NCBI RefSeq assembly: GCF_937138205.1
Contig: NZ_CAKZOT010000103.1
Coordinates: forward strand, 1-64,000
From: an uncultured Rhodospira sp.
Lineage (GTDB): Bacteria > Pseudomonadota > Alphaproteobacteria > Rhodospirillales > Rhodospirillaceae
Reading direction: 5' to 3'
Length of the DNA stretch: 64,000 nt
Shown here piece after piece: positions 41,160 to 57,942 of this stretch. Both the position numbers and the translations under genes were made by a program. Position 1 is the first letter of the stretch; each line of letters starts with the position of its first letter. The notes under the pieces are model-generated. The model was not told where the DNA came from, ran no database searches, and saw nothing but the letters and a program-made list of their open reading frames with translations.

Positions 41160-43505
41160 CTAACGCCGGTTGCCGATCATGCCATTCAGCCCATCCTGCT
41201 GTTGGTCGTTCAGTTCCAGGCGGATGTGTGTGGCGTCGTCGGTCTTGGCGACGATGGCACCACTCACAGTCCCAAGACCCGGGATATCGATCTTGAATTC
41301 CTGACCCCGCTCGCCGTCCAGCGCCCGATCGAGCGTGCCCACACCGCTCCGGGCGAGATCGTGCAACAGGGCGGACTGTTGGCCGCGCCCCGGGATCTCC
41401 AGGGTCACGGCCAGGTTGACCGTATGCAGTTCGCTGTCCAGACGGTCCTCCTCCGACCCGCTGCGCATCAGCTTGTCGAGCGCGGCCTGCATCTGGTGCA
41501 CGCGGTTGCGCACCTCGGCCGCCGCCTGCTGGACCGAGTTGGCGTGTTGGCCGGTCTCGGTGCTGCTGCTCGACACCTGGCCGATGTTCTCCGAGGAGTC
41601 CTGCGTGCTGCGCGAGGCCTGCTGCGCATTCTGGCTGATTTCCCGGGTGGCGGCGGTCTGTTCCTCCACGGCCGCTGAAACGGCGGTGGCGATCTCGTTG
41701 ATCTCGGCGATGACCTTGGCGATCCCGTCGATGGCGTCCACCGCCTCGCGCGTGGCGGACTGCATCCCGCCGATCTGCTTGGCGATGTCCTCGGTCGCGT
41801 TGGCCGTCTGGTTGGCCAGCGTCTTGACCTCGTTGGCGACGACGGCGAAGCCCTTGCCGGCCTCCCCGGCCCGCGCGGCCTCGATCGTGGCGTTGAGGGC
41901 CAACAGGTTCGTCTGCTTGGCGATGTCGCTGATCATGTTGACGACTTCGCCGATCTGGTTGGCCGCCTGGGCCAGCCCCTGGATCCGCTCGTTGGTCGTC
42001 TCCGCCTGTTCCACCGCCCGATGGGCCGTCGCCGCCGAAGCGCTGACCTGCCGGCTGATCTCGTCCACCGAGCTGGCCATCTGTTCGGCGGCGGCGGCCA
42101 CGGCATCGACACTGTGCGCCGCCTCCCGCGACGCGGACGCGGCGGCATCGGACCGGTTTTCCGTCTGCCTGACCGCGTCGGCCATCTGTTGGGCCAGCGT
42201 ATGCATGGTCTCGGCCTGCTGTTGGACAAGGCTGATGGCGTTGCGGACCTCCTGGTCGAGGGCGTTGGTCATGGCGAACATCTCGGCCTTGACCTTGCGC
42301 GCGTTGCGCCGGTGCATGGCCTCCTGCTCCGCCGCCAGTTCCTTCAGCTTCAGGCCATTGTCCTTGAACACCTGAACCGCGCCCGCCATTTCGCCGATCT
42401 CGTCGGAACGCTGACGCCCGGGCACCTCGACGGTAAGGTCGTCGTGCGCCAGCCGTTCCATGGCCTCCGTCATGCCCTTCAACGGACGGCTGAGCAGCCG
42501 GCGCAGCATGAGGACGATCAGCCCCATCACACCCAACGTGGCCAGCGGGTTGACGACGGCCTGCACCGAGGTCGACCGAAGCTGCACCTCCTCCAGGTGC
42601 TCCACCCGATCGTGCAACCGATCGGTCTCCGCCTGAGATGTCTCGCGCACCTCTGTGCGCTGCTTCTCGGCGGCCCGCATCAACTCGGCCAGTTCGCGCT
42701 CCTGGGCTTCCTCCAGGGTTTGGATTTTCTTTTCTGCCCGCTCCTCAAGCGCGATCAGGGCCGCCCGTGTGACGGCCACCTCGAGAACGCCGCGCGGCTC
42801 ATCGCCGCTTCCGTGGCAGCCCTGGCATTCCATGTCGTTGGTCAGGGTGGAGTAGGAGAACAGAACCGGCTGCAGGGCGCCGTCGTCGTCCTCGACCTCG
42901 CCCGGGTGTGTGGCCTTGCCATCGCCGACCGCCAACGCGTCGTCCAGACCCGCCTTGCGGTCCGCCGGAATCTCCACCGGATCCTCGCTTGACCGGGCTT
43001 GAAAATACGTCGTGCCCAGACGCTCGTTCACCTCCATGATGGTGGAATTGTCGGTGAAGGCCTCCACCCCTGTCGTCCGCCACAACCGGATCGACATGAC
43101 CCCCGGAATCTCGGACAGGGAGAACATGATGTCCTCGGCGGTGGAGGCTTCGCCGCTGAGCATCGCGGAGCGGATCATGCTTGTCGCCGACGACGAGATC
43201 CCCTGATGCATCCCGGCGATGAACCGCCGTTCGATCTCGGTTTCGCTGACCGTCTCCGTCTCGACCAGATCATGGTGCGCCTTTTGGCGAGCAATCTGCG
43301 TCTCGACAACCTCATCGACCGTGTTTTCAATAAACTCGTCTTTCTTCGCAATGACCCCGTCAACGTCTTCAGAAAACGCCTCTGTCTCGGACCGGACAAC
43401 AGTTGAAAAGTAATAAACCAAGGCTATATTTACGATGGCAATAATTGAAACCAAGGCCACGACAACGGCCGTAATCTTAGCATTCAGCGACTTCATCATG
43501 CCCAT
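41160..43505 (-). CDS. methyl-accepting chemotaxis protein with c-type heme motif and PilZ-like tail
   Basis: The 781-residue receptor has membrane helices at about 12-34 and 315-336. The periplasmic region between them contains ECQGCHGSG (C227, C230, H231), a CxxCH heme-attachment motif, followed by a coiled coil at about 250-312. Then come a HAMP domain (about 337-390), a full signalling domain (about 420-670, hairpin near QTNLLALNATIEAARAGEAG) and a C-terminal segment (about 695-781) with LLHDLARSGVG resembling a PilZ domain. A redox or gas sensor is likely. It is a monocistronic gene; no che operon is nearby. Confidence 0.88.
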   Translation of the reverse strand: MGMMKSLNAKITAVVVALVSIIAIVNIALVYYFSTVVRSETEAFSEDVDGVIAKKDEFIENTVDEVVETQIARQKAHHDLVETETVSETEIERRFIAGMHQGISSSATSMIRSAMLSGEASTAEDIMFSLSEIPGVMSIRLWRTTGVEAFTDNSTIMEVNERLGTTYFQARSSEDPVEIPADRKAGLDDALAVGDGKATHPGEVEDDDGALQPVLFSYSTLTNDMECQGCHGSGDEPRGVLEVAVTRAALIALEERAEKKIQTLEEAQERELAELMRAAEKQRTEVRETSQAETDRLHDRVEHLEEVQLRSTSVQAVVNPLATLGVMGLIVLMLRRLLSRPLKGMTEAMERLAHDDLTVEVPGRQRSDEIGEMAGAVQVFKDNGLKLKELAAEQEAMHRRNARKVKAEMFAMTNALDQEVRNAISLVQQQAETMHTLAQQMADAVRQTENRSDAAASASREAAHSVDAVAAAAEQMASSVDEISRQVSASAATAHRAVEQAETTNERIQGLAQAANQIGEVVNMISDIAKQTNLLALNATIEAARAGEAGKGFAVVANEVKTLANQTANATEDIAKQIGGMQSATREAVDAIDGIAKVIAEINEIATAVSAAVEEQTAATREISQNAQQASRSTQDSSENIGQVSSSSTETGQHANSVQQAAAEVRNRVHQMQAALDKLMRSGSEEDRLDSELHTVNLAVTLEIPGRGQQSALLHDLARSGVGTLDRALDGERGQEFKIDIPGLGTVSGAIVAKTDDATHIRLELNDQQQDGLNGMIGNRR

Positions 43506-43951: not shown

Positions 43952-44137
43952 TCAGGTCGCCGACTCGTCCTCTTCGACGCGGCCACCGGTGACGATAATG
44001 GTGATCGCCATGATGACAATCGTCAGGGCCAAAACCAGGTAGATGACCCACCATTGCTGGAAGATGAATACGGCCAAGTAGGCCAGCAGGCCCGCGAGAG
44101 CGACAGCAAGGATGAGACTCAACTTGACGGTTACCAT
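43952..44137 (-). CDS. small membrane protein, two predicted helices
   Basis: This 61-residue protein is almost entirely hydrophobic: helices at about 5-27 (LSLILAVALAGLLAYLAVFI) and 30-51 (VIYLVLALTIVIMAITIIV), with a short acidic tail. I do not recognise a family. A GGAAGGGAGG ribosome site 6 bp before the ATG and a terminator after it support a real gene. It is divergent from the DUF1538 operon and may be an accessory subunit; that link is only positional. Confidence 0.7.
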   Translation of the reverse strand: MVTVKLSLILAVALAGLLAYLAVFIFQQWWVIYLVLALTIVIMAITIIVTGGRVEEDESAT

Positions 44138-44498
44138 GGCCGGCCTCCCTTCCGTTTCAGATGCCCGGTTGCGGCCCCGCCGCCACTGACCGGCGCCGCC
44201 GCCCTCGCCGCCTCAAAAACGAAGGCTTTCGAGACGGTATTGTTACGTTTTAGATATAGCAGTTGGCATTCGTTGTCCACCCAATCGCCCCACCCAATCG
44301 CCCCCCAACGCCCTGGATCCGCCCGTCCCGTCCGCTGCTCTTCCGGCACCCCTGCATTGACAGGCTCCCGGGGTGCCCCCACGTTCTTGAGTACTATCGT
44401 GGCTTGTGTGATCGCCGCGGTCGCCTCACTCTCCGGACTCCGCTCATTCTCGCGGCGGTTCGCCCCTTTCCGCCCACTGTCGAACTGTCCCCCCAGGC
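44138..44498. other. 361-bp divergent control region before the DUF1538 operon
   Basis: No gene is seen. A 13-bp perfect tandem duplication (CACCCAATCGCCC twice) is at 44278-44303, next to an AT-rich stretch at 44244-44273 (TATTGTTACGTTTTAGATATAG). A TTGACA at 44357-44362 has no well-spaced -10 partner. Confidence 0.5.
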
Positions 44499-45233
44499 AT
44501 GATCACGCCCTTCCGATCCTTTCTCGGACTCATCCTGGGTGCGCTGCGCGATCTGGCGCCGATCATCCTGGTCATCAGCTTTTTCCAGATCGTCGTGCTG
44601 CAGCAACCGTTTCCGAACCTCGGGCCGATCATCGTCGGCTTGCTGCTGGTGTTGCTGGGGCTGGCGCTGTTCATCCAGGGGCTGGAGATGGGGTTGTTTC
44701 CCCTGGGCGAGTCCATGGCCCATGCCTTCGCCCGCAAGGGCAGTCTGTTCTGGCTGCTGGCGTTCGCCTTTGCCCTCGGCTTCGGGACCACGGTGGCCGA
44801 GCCAGCGCTGATCGCGGTGACCGGCGAGGCGGCCGAGGCCGCCGCCAAGGCCGGCCTGATCGCGCCGGGACCGGACAGCAAAGCGACCTATGCGGTCGGG
44901 ATGCGCTACACCGTGGCTTTCGCGGTTGGCATCGCCATCCTTGTGGGGGTCTTCCGCATCATCAAGGGCTGGCCGGTGCAGATCCTGATCATCGGCGGAT
45001 ACCTCATCGTCGTGGCGCTGACCTTCATCGCGCCGGCGGAGATCGTTGGCGTGGCGTACGATTCCGGCGGCGTCACCACGTCGACCATCACCGTGCCGCT
45101 GGTCACCGCGCTGGGCGTCGGGCTGGCCTCGATGCTGCGCGGCCGCAATCCGTTGATTGACGGCTTCGGGCTGATCGCCTTCGCCAGCCTGACGCCGATG
45201 ATGTTCGTCATGCTCTACGGCCTGCTGTACTGA
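44499..45233 (+). CDS. DUF1538 integral membrane protein, first copy
   Basis: The 244-residue protein has about six membrane segments. DUF1538 marks are [10 protein letters not shown] (61-70), AEPALIAV (100-107), [20 protein letters not shown] (186-205) and [14 protein letters not shown] (218-231). The second copy follows 20 bp downstream with the same motifs, so the two probably assemble as one pseudo-symmetric transporter or channel. No substrate is known to me. The small polar residues in the DSGGVTTST loop between hydrophobic stretches could line a pore; this is inference. Confidence 0.88.
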
Positions 45234-45253
45234 CCCGGAAGGAACCGCGCCCC

Positions 45254-46045
45254 GTGGCCACGCTGATCCAGCTTGTCGATACGCTCTGGACCACCATTCT
45301 GGACGTGGCGCCGATCCTGCTGATCCTGGTGCTGTTCCAGGTGATGGTGCTGCGCCAGAAGGTGCCGCACCTGCGACGCATGATCCTGGGGTTCATCTAC
45401 GTGGTGCTGGGGCTGGACCTGTTCCTGGTCGGGCTGGAGATGGCGTTGTTTCCCCTCGGCCAGATCATGGCCGGGCAACTGACCGACCCGGCATTCATGG
45501 GCGTCTCCGAGCAGGGGGCCATCGGGGCCAACTGGCGCGACTACCTGTGGGTCTATGCCTTCGCGGCCGCCGTCGGCTTTTCCACCACCATCGCCGAGCC
45601 GGCGCTGATCGCCGTCAGCCTGAAGGTGAAGGAGGTCTCCGGTGGCGCGGTGAAGGCGTGGGGCCTGCGGGTGGCGGTGGCCGTCGGTGTGGCGGTTGGC
45701 GTGACGCTCGGCGCGCTTCGCATCGTCACCGGCTGGTCCTTGCCCCTGCTCATCGTCATCGGCTATGTGATCGTGATCATTCAGACCCTGATCGCGCCGC
45801 GTCAGATCATTCCGCTCGCCTACGATTCCGGGGGAGTGACCACGTCCACCGTCACGGTGCCCCTGGTGACCGCGCTCGGCCTGGGCCTGGCCTCGAACAT
45901 TCCCGGGCGCAGTCCCCTCATCGACGGCTTCGGGCTGATCGCCCTGGCCAGCCTGTTTCCCATGATCACCGTCATGGGCTACGCGCAGGTGGGCGACCTT
46001 CTCGCCCGTCGCGCCGCCCGCCGCAAAGCGCGTGAGGAGTCATGA
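45254..46045 (+). CDS. DUF1538 integral membrane protein, second copy
   Basis: The 263-residue paralogue starts at GTG 45254 after a GGAAGGA site. It repeats the family motifs GLEMALFPLG (60-69), AEPALIAV (114-121), [11 protein letters not shown] (189-199) and [14 protein letters not shown], and adds a basic C-terminal tail (ARRAARRKAREES) facing the cytoplasm if topology matches copy one. Its stop overlaps the start of the PII-like gene by four bases, tying membrane protein and regulator together. Confidence 0.88.
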   Translation: MATLIQLVDTLWTTILDVAPILLILVLFQVMVLRQKVPHLRRMILGFIYVVLGLDLFLVGLEMALFPLGQIMAGQLTDPAFMGVSEQGAIGANWRDYLWVYAFAAAVGFSTTIAEPALIAVSLKVKEVSGGAVKAWGLRVAVAVGVAVGVTLGALRIVTGWSLPLLIVIGYVIVIIQTLIAPRQIIPLAYDSGGVTTSTVTVPLVTALGLGLASNIPGRSPLIDGFGLIALASLFPMITVMGYAQVGDLLARRAARRKAREES

Positions 46046-46392
46046 AGTTCAAGTTGATCATCGCCAGTGTCCCGGACACGACGACCGACGCCATCGTCGA
46101 CGCCGCCCGCAAGGAGGGCGCCACCGGCTGCACGGTCCTGACCAACGCCCGCGGCGAGGGGCTGAAAAAGGCCAAGACGTTCCTGGGCCTGGACCTGGCG
46201 GGCGGGCGCGACCTGGTGCTGATCATCGTCGAGCAGCATCTGGCCCGGCGCATCCTGGAAACCATCGACGCGGCCGGCAAGTTCGACACCAGCCCCGGGG
46301 CCGGCATCGCCATCATGATCGATGTCGAGGACGCCGTCGGCCTGGGCAGCCAGATTCACACCATCCAGACCGAGATCGAGGACGAGGTATGA
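46042..46392 (+). CDS. PII-like nitrogen-regulator-family protein
   Basis: The 116-residue protein starts KFKLIIASVPDTTTDAIVDAARKEGATG, the beta-alpha start of PII proteins, and has the fold's length. The T-loop region reads ARGEGLKKAKTFLGLD and lacks the uridylylatable Tyr of GlnB/GlnK, so it is a PII-like sensor rather than a nitrogen PII. PII-like proteins next to transporters usually bind adenine nucleotides and gate the transporter. It is translationally coupled on both sides. Confidence 0.86.
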   Translation: MKFKLIIASVPDTTTDAIVDAARKEGATGCTVLTNARGEGLKKAKTFLGLDLAGGRDLVLIIVEQHLARRILETIDAAGKFDTSPGAGIAIMIDVEDAVGLGSQIHTIQTEIEDEV

Positions 46393-46823
46393 GCAGCAGG
46401 CCGTATAAGCCGGTCCGGCAGGTCATGTCCGACACGCCGTACCTGATCGAGGGCATGGCCACCGTCACCGAGGCGGTGGCCATGATGAAAGAGAAGCGCG
46501 TCAGTTCCCTGGTCATCCGCAAGCGCCACGAGGGCGACGAATACGGCATGGTCGTCATCCAGGACATCGCCGACAAGATCGTCGCCCAGGATCGCTCGCC
46601 CGACCGCGTCAACGTCTACGAAATCATGAGCAAACCCCTGATCGCCGTGCAGGCCGACATGGACGTCCGGTACGCCATCCGCCTGCTTGGCCGGTTCCGC
46701 CTGTCGCGGACCATCGTGATGGACCAGGGAGAGCTGGTCGGCATCGCCACCCTGCGCGACCTTGTCCTCGCCTACCTGACGGGCGACGATCAAGTCCCGC
46801 CCGCCCCAACGGAGACATCGTGA
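46389..46823 (+). CDS. CBS-domain pair protein
   Basis: The 144-residue protein is essentially two CBS motifs: VRQVMSDTPYLIEGMATVTEAVAMM, then YEIMSKPLIAVQADMDVRYAIRLL with VGIATLRDLVLAYL at the end. Such Bateman modules bind AMP, ATP or S-adenosyl ligands. The ATG overlaps the PII-like stop. It is a second probable ligand sensor for the DUF1538 pair. Confidence 0.9.
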   Translation: MSSRPYKPVRQVMSDTPYLIEGMATVTEAVAMMKEKRVSSLVIRKRHEGDEYGMVVIQDIADKIVAQDRSPDRVNVYEIMSKPLIAVQADMDVRYAIRLLGRFRLSRTIVMDQGELVGIATLRDLVLAYLTGDDQVPPAPTETS

Positions 46824-46824
46824 C

Positions 46825-47817
46825 ATGCTCACCGCCGTGGTGTTCTTGATCCTCGGATTCGTCCTCTTGCCTGTCGGCGCCAACATCCTGGTCAGCGGCG
46901 CCGTCGCCCTGTCGGAACGCCTGGGCGTCTCGCCCCTGGTGGTGGCGTTGACCGTCGTGGCCTTTGGCACGTCGCTGCCGGAACTGGTGGTCTGTCTGGA
47001 CGCCGCGCTGGGCGGCGCGCCGGGCATCGCCATGGGCAACGTGGTCGGCTCGAACATCGCCAACGTGCTGTTGATCCTGGGGGCGGCGGCCCTGATCATG
47101 CCCGTCGCCTGCGGCGAGCCGCGCGCGTTCCTGCGTGACAGCCTGATCATGCTGGCCGCCACGGCCCTGTGCGTGGGCGCGGTCCTGTCGGGTGTCATCC
47201 CGCGCTGGCAGGGCGGCGGGATGCTGGTCCTGCTGGTGGTTTTCCTGGTGTACTCCTATTGGCGTGACTCGACCGACAAGGACGCCGCCGAGTCCCATCT
47301 GTCAGAGGTCGAGGAGTTCGAGGGCCTGAAGGACCGGCCCTGGGCGATCATCATTGGCGCCATCGTGCTCGGGCTTGCCGGGGTGGTCGGTGGCGCCCAC
47401 CTTCTGGTCGAGGGCGCCGTGGTGGTCGCGCGCGGCCTGGGTGTGTCCGAGGCGGTGATCGGTCTGACCGTTGTGGCCCTGGGCACCTCGCTGCCGGAAC
47501 TCGCGGTGGCCGTCGCGGCGGCGATGAAGAAAGAGCCGGATGTGATCGTCGGCAGCATTGTCGGCTCCAACATCTTCAACATCCTGGCCATCCTGGGCGC
47601 CACCGCGCTGGTGATCCCGATCGAAGTGCCGGCGCAGGTGGCGTCGTTCGACATCTGGGTCATGGTCGCCGTCGCCGTGCTGTTGCTGCCCGTCATGATG
47701 AGCGGGCGCCGCATGAGCCGGGTTGAGGGGGGCCTGTTCCTGACGGCCTACGCGGGGTACACGGCGATCCAGTACGTCGGCGTGGATCGTGTGTTGATGC
47801 TGTCCCCGGTGTCTTGA
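46825..47817 (+). CDS. calcium/sodium antiporter, CaCA family
   Basis: The 330-residue exchanger has the two inverted alpha-repeats: AFGTSLPELVV with GNVVGSNIANVLLILG in the first half, and ALGTSLPELAV with GSIVGSNIFNILAILG in the second. About ten membrane segments are present. It starts one base after the CBS gene stops, so it is part of the same operon. It resembles YrbG-type exchangers; the transported ions are inferred from the family. Confidence 0.92.
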   Translation: MLTAVVFLILGFVLLPVGANILVSGAVALSERLGVSPLVVALTVVAFGTSLPELVVCLDAALGGAPGIAMGNVVGSNIANVLLILGAAALIMPVACGEPRAFLRDSLIMLAATALCVGAVLSGVIPRWQGGGMLVLLVVFLVYSYWRDSTDKDAAESHLSEVEEFEGLKDRPWAIIIGAIVLGLAGVVGGAHLLVEGAVVVARGLGVSEAVIGLTVVALGTSLPELAVAVAAAMKKEPDVIVGSIVGSNIFNILAILGATALVIPIEVPAQVASFDIWVMVAVAVLLLPVMMSGRRMSRVEGGLFLTAYAGYTAIQYVGVDRVLMLSPVS

Positions 47818-47828
47818 GGCCGCCAACC

Positions 47829-48611
47829 ATGGTGCACGCCATCCCGCCTTTCGCCCTGGTGACCGGAGCGGGCCGCCGGATCGGCCGTGCCCTGGCGCTG
47901 GAATTGGCGGACGTCGGTTTCGCGGTGGCCGTGCACTATTTCGGCTCGGCCGAGGCTGCCCACGAAACCCGTGCCTTGATCGAGGCCCAGGGCGGTCGCG
48001 CCGTCACCGTGCGCGCCGACCTGGGGACCGAGGACGACGCGGCGCCCCTGGTGCGCCGCGCGTCCGAGGCGCTCGGCGGCCCCATCGGCGTCCTGGTCAA
48101 CAATGCCTCGACGTTCGACTACGACGCCTGGGACACCGTCGACCGCGAGAGTTGGGATCGGCACATGGAACCCAACCTCCGCGCCCCGTTCGTGCTCGCC
48201 CAGGCCATGGCCCGCGCGTTGCCGGCCGAGGCTGAAGGCTTGGTGCTCAATATGATCGACCAACGGGTCTGGAACCTGACGCCGCACTTCGTCAGCTACA
48301 CGGTCAGCAAGGCCGGGCTGTGGACCCTGACGCAAACGCTGGCGCTGGCGCTGGCCCCGCGCGTACGGGTCAACGCCGTTGGCCCGGGGCCGGCGCTGCC
48401 AAGTCCGCGCCAGACACAGGCGCAGTTCGATGCCCAATGCGCGGCCCTGCCCTTGCGGCGGGGAACCTCGCCCGAGGAAATCAGGACCGCTCTCCGGTTT
48501 GTCCTTGCGGCCCGCTCCATGACCGGGCAAATGATAGCGCTCGATGGGGGTCAGCATCTGGCCTGGGCGTGGCCGGCCACGGGCGGTCTCGCCAAGGCGC
48601 CCGAGGAGTAG
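47829..48611 (+). CDS. short-chain dehydrogenase, pteridine-reductase-like
   Basis: The 260-residue SDR has VTGAGRRIGRALAL, with the Arg-Arg pair seen in pteridine/dihydromonapterin reductases, NNASTFDYD, and YTVSKAGL (catalytic Tyr, Lys). The folB gene follows 98 bp later, which supports a pterin/folate role (FolM-like). The ATG at 47829 is preferred to the TTG at 47814, which overlaps the exchanger gene. Confidence 0.82.
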   Translation: MVHAIPPFALVTGAGRRIGRALALELADVGFAVAVHYFGSAEAAHETRALIEAQGGRAVTVRADLGTEDDAAPLVRRASEALGGPIGVLVNNASTFDYDAWDTVDRESWDRHMEPNLRAPFVLAQAMARALPAEAEGLVLNMIDQRVWNLTPHFVSYTVSKAGLWTLTQTLALALAPRVRVNAVGPGPALPSPRQTQAQFDAQCAALPLRRGTSPEEIRTALRFVLAARSMTGQMIALDGGQHLAWAWPATGGLAKAPEE

Positions 48612-48709
48612 GCCCCCGGCACGCCCGACATCCAATCGGCCCCCAGCCTTGGCCCGTCTGCGGCGCGTCATGTCCGCGCCCCTGCTGTTCCTTCTGGCAA
48701 GGTGGGTTC

Positions 48710-49135
48710 ATGAGCCCTCGCTCCAAGCTATACACGACCACACCGTCAAACCCGTTGGCGGATGCCGAGGCTGGCCTGCGTCATGTGTTTGTCCGCGACC
48801 TCGTGCTGCCGGCGCGGATCGGGGTGCACACGCACGAAAAGACCGGCCCGCAACGAATACGCCTGAACCTGGACCTGGGCGTGCGGGAGGGCGCGGTCGC
48901 CCTGGAGGATCGGCTGGAGAACGTGGTGTGCTATGAGTCGGTGCTCAACCGTGTTCGCGCCATCGTCGCGACCGGCCATGTGAACCTCGTGGAGACACTC
49001 GCCGAACGGATCGCGCAGACGTGCCTGGAGGATGCCCGGGTCCGGCGCGCCGTGGTCCGGATCGAGAAGCTCGACGTCTTTTGCGACGCCGCAAGTGTCG
49101 GCGTCACAATCGAACGGCTCAATCCGTTTGGATGA
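48710..49135 (+). CDS. folB: dihydroneopterin aldolase family protein
   Basis: The 141-residue protein has the FolB pattern VFVRDLVLPARIGVHTHEK, QRIRLNLDL, VCYESVLNRVRAIV and NLVETLAERIAQ. It converts dihydroneopterin to 6-hydroxymethyl-dihydropterin in folate synthesis, or acts in a related pterin step. The ATG at 48710 follows an AAGGTGG site. Confidence 0.88.
   Translation: MSPRSKLYTTTPSNPLADAEAGLRHVFVRDLVLPARIGVHTHEKTGPQRIRLNLDLGVREGAVALEDRLENVVCYESVLNRVRAIVATGHVNLVETLAERIAQTCLEDARVRRAVVRIEKLDVFCDAASVGVTIERLNPFG

Positions 49136-57588: not shown

Positions 57589-57942
<354 letters not shown>

Follow-up and report, generated by a model that had tools for sequence, protein, structure and literature searches.

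A DUF1538 gene pair related to the UmpAB cation/proton antiporter is closely linked to genes for a PII-like protein and a CBS protein

RESULTS

A compact gene run links two DUF1538 proteins to PII-like and CBS proteins

We analyzed a 64,000-nucleotide (nt) stretch of DNA (the window) from an uncultured Rhodospira sp. (contig NZ_CAKZOT010000103.1, assembly GCF_937138205.1), in which two genes for DUF1538 membrane proteins are followed by genes for a PII-like protein, a CBS protein, and a CaCA exchanger (Table 1). These five genes form a compact run on the plus strand (44499-47817) in which no gap or overlap exceeds 20 nt. The umpA-like and umpB-like genes lie 20 nt apart, ATGA overlaps join umpB to the PII-like gene and the PII-like gene to the CBS gene, 1 nt separates the CBS and CaCA genes, and the CaCA gene overlaps the SDR gene behind it by 4 nt. 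A preliminary description of the locus, made from the letters alone, had placed the genes at these positions and reported overlapping or one-base junctions from umpB through CaCA, and the open reading frame (ORF) coordinates, together with Pfam matches for each family, bear out both readings. It had also taken the DUF1538 proteins for paralogs with motifs at matching positions. We found that the two are 49% identical over 238 columns, that the named motifs line up, and that both match Pfam; they are also the only two DUF1538 matches in the whole source genome.

Table 1. Genes of the run and its flanks, with coordinates in the window
Feature	Position	Strand	Length and evidence
umpA-like gene, DUF1538 subunit A	44499-45233	+	244 aa; PF07556 223.1 bits (cut-off 22.6)
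umpB-like gene, DUF1538 subunit B	45254-46045	+	263 aa, GTG start; PF07556 226 bits (cut-off 22.6)
PII-like protein	46042-46392	+	116 aa; PF00543 34.5 bits (cut-off 25)
Stand-alone two-CBS protein	46389-46823	+	144 aa; PF00571 62.5 bits over 2 stretches (cut-off 24)
CaCA calcium/sodium antiporter	46825-47817	+	330 aa; Na_Ca_ex 211.8 bits (cut-off 24.9)
SDR gene	47814-48611	+	Same run, after CaCA; Pfam
FolB-domain ORF	48320-49135	+	Same run, after SDR; Pfam
Small divergent ORF	43952-44137	-	61 aa; ORF list

The DUF1538 pair resembles the two subunits of UmpAB

In 2017, the DUF1538 pair UmpAB of Halomonas zhaodongensis was reported to work as a heterodimer that exchanges Na+ (Li+, K+) for H+ in a pH-dependent manner, and coimmunoprecipitation of UmpA with UmpB was published, in both cases for the Halomonas proteins only (PMC5484666; here and below, statements on published systems draw on passages of the papers cited). 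NCBIfam provides models for UmpA (NF041627) and UmpB (NF041628), with equivalog cut-offs of 490 and 500 bits, respectively. Subunit A from the window scored 359.9 bits with the UmpA model versus 172.4 with the UmpB model, and subunit B scored 331.1 bits with UmpB versus 209.3 with UmpA, so that the neighboring A and B subunits each match their own model best while remaining below its equivalog cut-off. Judged by these scores, the window pair are homologs of UmpAB, with the same paired subunits in the same order. The preliminary description had proposed an energy-gated channel within an undescribed transport system of unknown substrate. An undescribed system of unknown substrate is not supported, since the homologous UmpAB has been characterized, and the supported class is an antiporter rather than a channel, most likely exchanging Na+ (and Li+ and K+) for H+. 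Both the antiport and the A-B heterodimer are carried over here from the literature on the homolog.

The Halomonas clone differs from our locus in listing no PII or CBS gene. Its 4.2-kb insert is described as ORF1 to ORF4, with umpB last and nothing listed downstream, and the main text of that paper contains zero occurrences of PII, P-II, or CBS (PMC5484666). Only 2 of the 390 genomes that we searched passed the UmpB cut-off (505.7 and 500.4 bits; their UmpA scores, 428.7 and 417.6, fall below 490), and we took these two UmpB homologs as the nearest proxies for the characterized Halomonas UmpB. In both, the umpB gene is followed downstream by PII and CBS genes (L321 and L322), and one of these loci has, in addition, a second module in which a fused UmpAB is accompanied by PII and CBS, as well as a third PII gene upstream.

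Five residues (D17, E115, R156, D191, and D224) are invariant across 138 aligned DUF1538 proteins. An AlphaFold2 model of the UmpB-like subunit (mean predicted local distance difference test [pLDDT] score, 94.2) has a long C-terminal helix and helix breaks near AEP (113-116) and DSGGVTTS (195-201), the sites of E115 and D191; in this model, breaks that hold invariant acidic residues would suit an antiporter. A profile of the 138 sequences matched none of the PDB chains at E values up to 1, and the best VIA match of the model (4u9n; Z = 5.2, 103 residues, 4.3 Å) lies within the helical background. CLC, MgtE, NapA, and NHA2 folds appeared only as weak PDB rows for UmpB, and we concluded nothing from them.

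A PII-like gene is the near-constant neighbor of DUF1538

We compared 198 DUF1538 loci, which contain 194 distinct UmpB cores. They comprise 80 named loci (the best 80 of 587 confirmed loci, and hence biased toward near relatives), 60 loci from a phylum survey, 20 from a survey of gammaproteobacteria, and 38 others, mostly divergent forms or near relatives; all 118 outside the named set were handpicked from listed matches to spread families. Adjacency was scored first by a domain distance of 350 nt and then by a recount on gene spans that also allowed the order PII-CBS-UmpAB. By gene spans, a PII-like gene adjoins DUF1538 in 191 of 198 loci (79/80, 56/60, 20/20, and 36/38 in the four sets), and a CBS gene accompanies the PII gene in 150 (78, 37, 20, and 15, respectively); the stricter 350-nt rule gave 185 and 148. 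The order DUF1538-DUF1538-PII-CBS, for which the preliminary description had suggested a survey of genomes, is thus kept well beyond close relatives, although it is the PII gene, and not the CBS gene, that is the near-constant neighbor.

Within the best 80 of 587, named records include Alpha-, Gamma-, and Deltaproteobacteria/Desulfobacterota, one Zixibacteriota metagenome-assembled genome (MAG), and one Binatia MAG. The DUF1538 protein of G280, a genome of the same class as the window, is shared with the named Nisaea nitritireducens locus (L129 and L089), which by inference makes the window alphaproteobacterial. A Methylocystis plasmid carries DUF1538-DUF1538-PII with no CBS gene, and its PII is labeled "P-II family nitrogen regulator." The A and B subunits may be fused with a PII gene still beside them (L130, L143, L144, L151, and L152, and six more loci, including L271 to L274 and L278), and in L274 the order is rearranged to PII-CBS-UmpAB. 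In family f47, three genomes whose DUF1538 loci lack an adjacent PII gene (L153, L154, and L226) carry PII and CBS genes side by side on a different contig (L329, L330, and L335). Two further genomes lacking a PII gene at one locus (L155 and L159) also hold a fused UmpAB with PII (L217 and L218). Because the linkage survives A-B fusion, reordering, and splitting, it speaks for a functional link between UmpAB and PII.

The two families also occur together at the level of genomes. Among 299 genomes from the phylum survey, with PII profile matches accepted at an E value of ≤0.001 (a threshold that admits weak matches to other PII proteins), DUF1538 occurred in 116 and the PII profile in 130; both were present in 113, DUF1538 only in 3, PII only in 17, and neither in 166. 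The PII profile therefore matched in 113 of 116 genomes with DUF1538 versus 17 of 183 without it (Fisher's P = 2.6e-59, uncorrected for phylogeny).

The PII-like protein keeps the fold but lacks canonical PII residues

The model of the PII-like protein in the window has a PII fold, matching 6yc6 in Foldseek (E = 2.9e-6) and 2v5h in VIA (Z = 12.3, 93 residues, 3.5 Å), with SbtB chains among its PII-fold matches; its mean pLDDT is 82.8, lowest in the short loop. A quinone reductase was the top PDB match for the single PII sequence, which we judged to be chance, and a PII profile search gave PII proteins.

In canonical PII proteins, Tyr51, Gln39, Lys58, Lys90, Arg101, and Arg103 have roles in uridylylation and ligand binding. 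The preliminary description had noted that the uridylylation Tyr was lacking, and this holds for the type as a whole: Tyr51 is present in 0 of 138 main-set PII proteins and 0 of 37 divergent ones. Among the 138, Lys58, Lys90, and Arg101 are each retained in 0, Gln39 in 2, and Arg103 in 9, whereas all six residues are present in 17 of 17 canonical GlnB/GlnK controls. Other positions are largely kept (Thr29 in 135, Gly35 in 138, Gly37 in 137, Gly87 in 134, and Gly89 in 137). The segment from 37 to 59 spans 19 residues, four fewer than the 23 of GlnB/GlnK types, and an RGEG....TF.GL....D motif is nearly invariant in 55 aligned PII-like members. Given the canonical roles of the lost residues, contacts with ATP phosphates and 2-oxoglutarate would be altered in the PII-like protein, and as a guess its ligand could be an adenine nucleotide with fewer phosphates.

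These proteins are also distinct from the GlnB/GlnK type in phylogeny and in their genomes. A tree of 192 PII domains separated the 17 GlnB/GlnK-type members from the other 175 with a split support of 0.987. When we searched 10 genomes with PF00543, 9 had a GlnB/GlnK-type protein at 106 to 124 bits and 9 had a divergent PII at the DUF1538 locus at 24 to 44 bits; in the tenth genome for the latter (G350), PF00543 listed none at the DUF1538 locus, where a multi-PII protein scores 19 bits. A GlnB/GlnK-type PII that has every residue lost from the PII-like protein is encoded in the window 11 kb downstream of the latter's gene (57589-57942, plus strand). Two further P-II matches in the source genome (G000:C6:19172-19447 [L297], 54.7 bits, and G000:C31:159-440 [L305], 46.9 bits) are neither GlnB/GlnK-like nor adjacent to DUF1538. 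At four loci elsewhere (L331, L332, L333, and L337), a PII gene of the same type as the PII-like gene, with no DUF1538 beside it, lies next to a gene for an SH3-domain protein (by Pfam in L332; similar ORFs by eye in the others), with a flavoprotein-like ORF in some.

Some fused UmpAB genes abut a multi-PII protein

In five loci (L212, L213, L327, L350, and L351), a fused UmpAB of 621 to 713 aa abuts a protein of 369 to 420 aa in which HMMER found two PII domains in four loci and three in L351. With Pfam alone, the cut-off was passed by a single PII domain in each of L327 and L351 and by none in L212 or L213. When we aligned the N-terminal, middle, and C-terminal segments to the PII profile with hhalign, they matched with probabilities of 95.6, 97.5, and 93.9%, and these proteins apparently hold three PII domains each. 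Such single chains would be covalent PII trimers. In L339 (4455-5166, minus strand), two overlapping PII-like genes follow a fused UmpAB, a pair that is possibly a step toward the multi-PII proteins.

CBS, CaCA, and flanking genes

An alignment of 75 CBS proteins has seven invariant residues (D50, K82, P83, Y95, R98, V110, and G118). The CaCA protein scores 233 bits with TIGR00367, over its cut-off of 179.65. The preliminary description had included CaCA in the coupled run, and it does adjoin the CBS gene, but it is a lineage-specific accessory: CaCA lies beside the module in 5 of 5 loci of the same genus or family with room for it (L341 to L345), in none of three same-order loci with room downstream (L347 to L349), and in only 2 of the 80 wider loci (L078 and L083; best 80 of 587). 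It also lies just upstream of UmpAB in L351. CaCA and SDR genes remain together in L078, L083, and L341 to L345.

The small divergent ORF that the preliminary description had reported is present, although it is not conserved; a tblastn search of 93 loci (E < 0.01) found it in a single same-genus locus (L341, 83% identity). Farther out in the window, a methyl-accepting chemotaxis protein (41160-43505, minus strand) has a CQGCH motif in its sensor part, which we take to be a c-type heme signature.

DISCUSSION

We lean toward the reading that UmpAB is an antiporter under direct nucleotide-dependent gating by a dedicated PII protein and tuned by the CBS protein. UmpA and UmpB would form a heteromeric secondary transporter exchanging Na+ (Li+ and K+) against H+ at the core of a four-gene module, umpA-umpB-PII-CBS. 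The PII-like protein, presumably a trimer, would be its dedicated regulatory subunit, sensing an adenine nucleotide in a pocket between its own subunits and docking through its short conserved loop onto the cytoplasmic face of UmpAB, where it would open or block antiport. The CBS protein may be a second nucleotide-sensing unit that, in many lineages, binds or loads PII or UmpAB. Antiport would thereby be throttled by the energy or second-messenger state of the cell and kept from draining the proton motive force at low energy. The contact made by PII and CBS, their ligand, and the sign of control are what we infer in this model.

Several known systems offer parallels. In GlnK-AmtB, insertion of the T-loop blocks the channel (PMC10710835), and there too a PII protein is encoded beside a membrane transporter, although of another family, and the window PII-like type has lost both Tyr51 and the long T-loop. 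SbtB is a dedicated PII-like protein beside the Na+-coupled transporter SbtA and is controlled by AMP (PMC10710835), which is similar to the partnership proposed here, and SbtB chains are among those that match the window PII fold; SbtA, however, is a bicarbonate transporter, with no DUF1538 and no CBS partner. PII-NG is described as a divergent proteobacterial PII beside the proton/cation antiporter CzcABC (PMC7726332, citing Sant'Anna 2009). Its partner is an RND metal pump rather than a DUF1538 pair, and the likeness is by description, as our PII tree held no verified PII-NG sequence. Nucleotide-binding CBS pairs control transport in MgtE, CorB, and OpuA (PMC10710835), where they lie within the transporter, whereas the CBS protein of the window is a separate protein beside PII.

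A number of observations weigh against direct gating of an antiporter by PII. A review states that PII control seems confined to trimeric transporters (PMC10710835), and UmpAB is reported to be a heterodimer; for UmpAB to work with PII, three UmpAB heterodimers would have to assemble as a trimer, or else PII, its covalent form included, would have to serve another symmetry. Three-PII single chains could free PII from the trimeric-transporter rule. UmpAB showed antiport in Escherichia coli without its own PII and CBS (PMC5484666), and thus PII is dispensable for antiport, at least on overexpression. Neither window subunit reaches its equivalog threshold (359.9 versus 490 bits for A and 331.1 versus 500 for B), and the UmpB model had no convincing PDB match in Foldseek (best E = 0.36). 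In seven of the 198 loci, DUF1538 lacks a PII neighbor (L072, L153, L154, L155, L159, L225, and L226), CBS is missing beside PII in 41 of 191 PII loci, and, among the loci examined for fusions, we found only A-B fusions, with PII joined to neither CBS nor DUF1538. In addition, 10 of the 175 tree members outside the GlnB/GlnK type come from loci not beside DUF1538, and the same PII type occurs at loci free of DUF1538 (L331 to L334, L336, L337, and L340).

The last of these observations, the dispensability of CBS, and the PII-CBS pairs on separate contigs raise the alternative that neither the PII-like nor the CBS protein belongs to the transporter as a subunit, both being instead cotranscribed with it for salt or pH stress and acting on other targets. 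We consider this unlikely: a direct link is favored by the retention of one partner class despite fusion and reordering and in several phyla, the near-constant neighbor of DUF1538 is the PII gene and not the CBS gene, and the known pairs GlnK-AmtB and SbtB-SbtA bind directly (PMC10710835).

It is also possible, although we give it a low probability, that the natural cargo of DUF1538 is another ion or solute and that antiport is a side activity on overexpression in sensitized E. coli. The functional evidence that we considered for UmpAB antiport comes from a single paper (PMC5484666), papers with overlapping authors credit RDD, UPF0118, MFS, and CDF proteins with this activity as well, judging by titles and abstracts, and the window pair is under the UmpA and UmpB cut-offs. 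Against this stand the vesicle assays, which were pH-dependent with Na+, Li+, and K+ (PMC5484666), the invariance of the acidic residues D17, E115, D191, and D224 in 138 DUF1538 proteins, the frequency of marine or saline sources among the named loci (best 80 of 587), and passages of two cable-bacteria papers that tie UmpAB presence to salinity.

A sodium-calcium circuit in this lineage, in which a UmpAB Na+ gradient feeds CaCA and PII and CBS serve the whole circuit, fits the 1-nt junction, the near relatives, L078, L083, and L351 but is improbable, given that 78 of the 80 wider loci, as well as L347 to L349, have no CaCA next to the module and that SDR and FolB continue the same run, so the overlap may merely mark an operon join.

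We found no report of UmpAB coupled to PII or CBS among the titles and opening abstracts of the open literature that we searched; the DUF1538 and UmpAB passages covered there do not mention such regulators, and the "PII" of PMC7221264 is a peptide motif. The parts are of known kinds, and, within that literature, it is the combination of UmpAB with PII and CBS that is new. Tentatively, and at a little short of an even chance, we propose that UmpAB-PII-CBS represents a class of nucleotide-gated cation/proton antiporters with a dedicated PII, in which three-PII chains serve as covalent trimers.

Antiporters that exchange Na+ or K+ for H+ draw on the proton motive force, and the way in which cell energy throttles them is a basic question. 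PII and CBS beside an antiporter offer a concrete two-sensor system for a family that has so far been assayed without its neighbors, and UmpAB with PII would put the trimeric-transporter rule to the test. For annotators, "P-II family nitrogen regulators" linked to DUF1538 are probably not nitrogen regulators. The sole biochemical study of UmpAB used a clone listing neither regulator. If direct gating of UmpAB by PII is correct, cation/proton antiport would join the transporters under PII control, and the three-PII proteins would be a natural covalent PII trimer.

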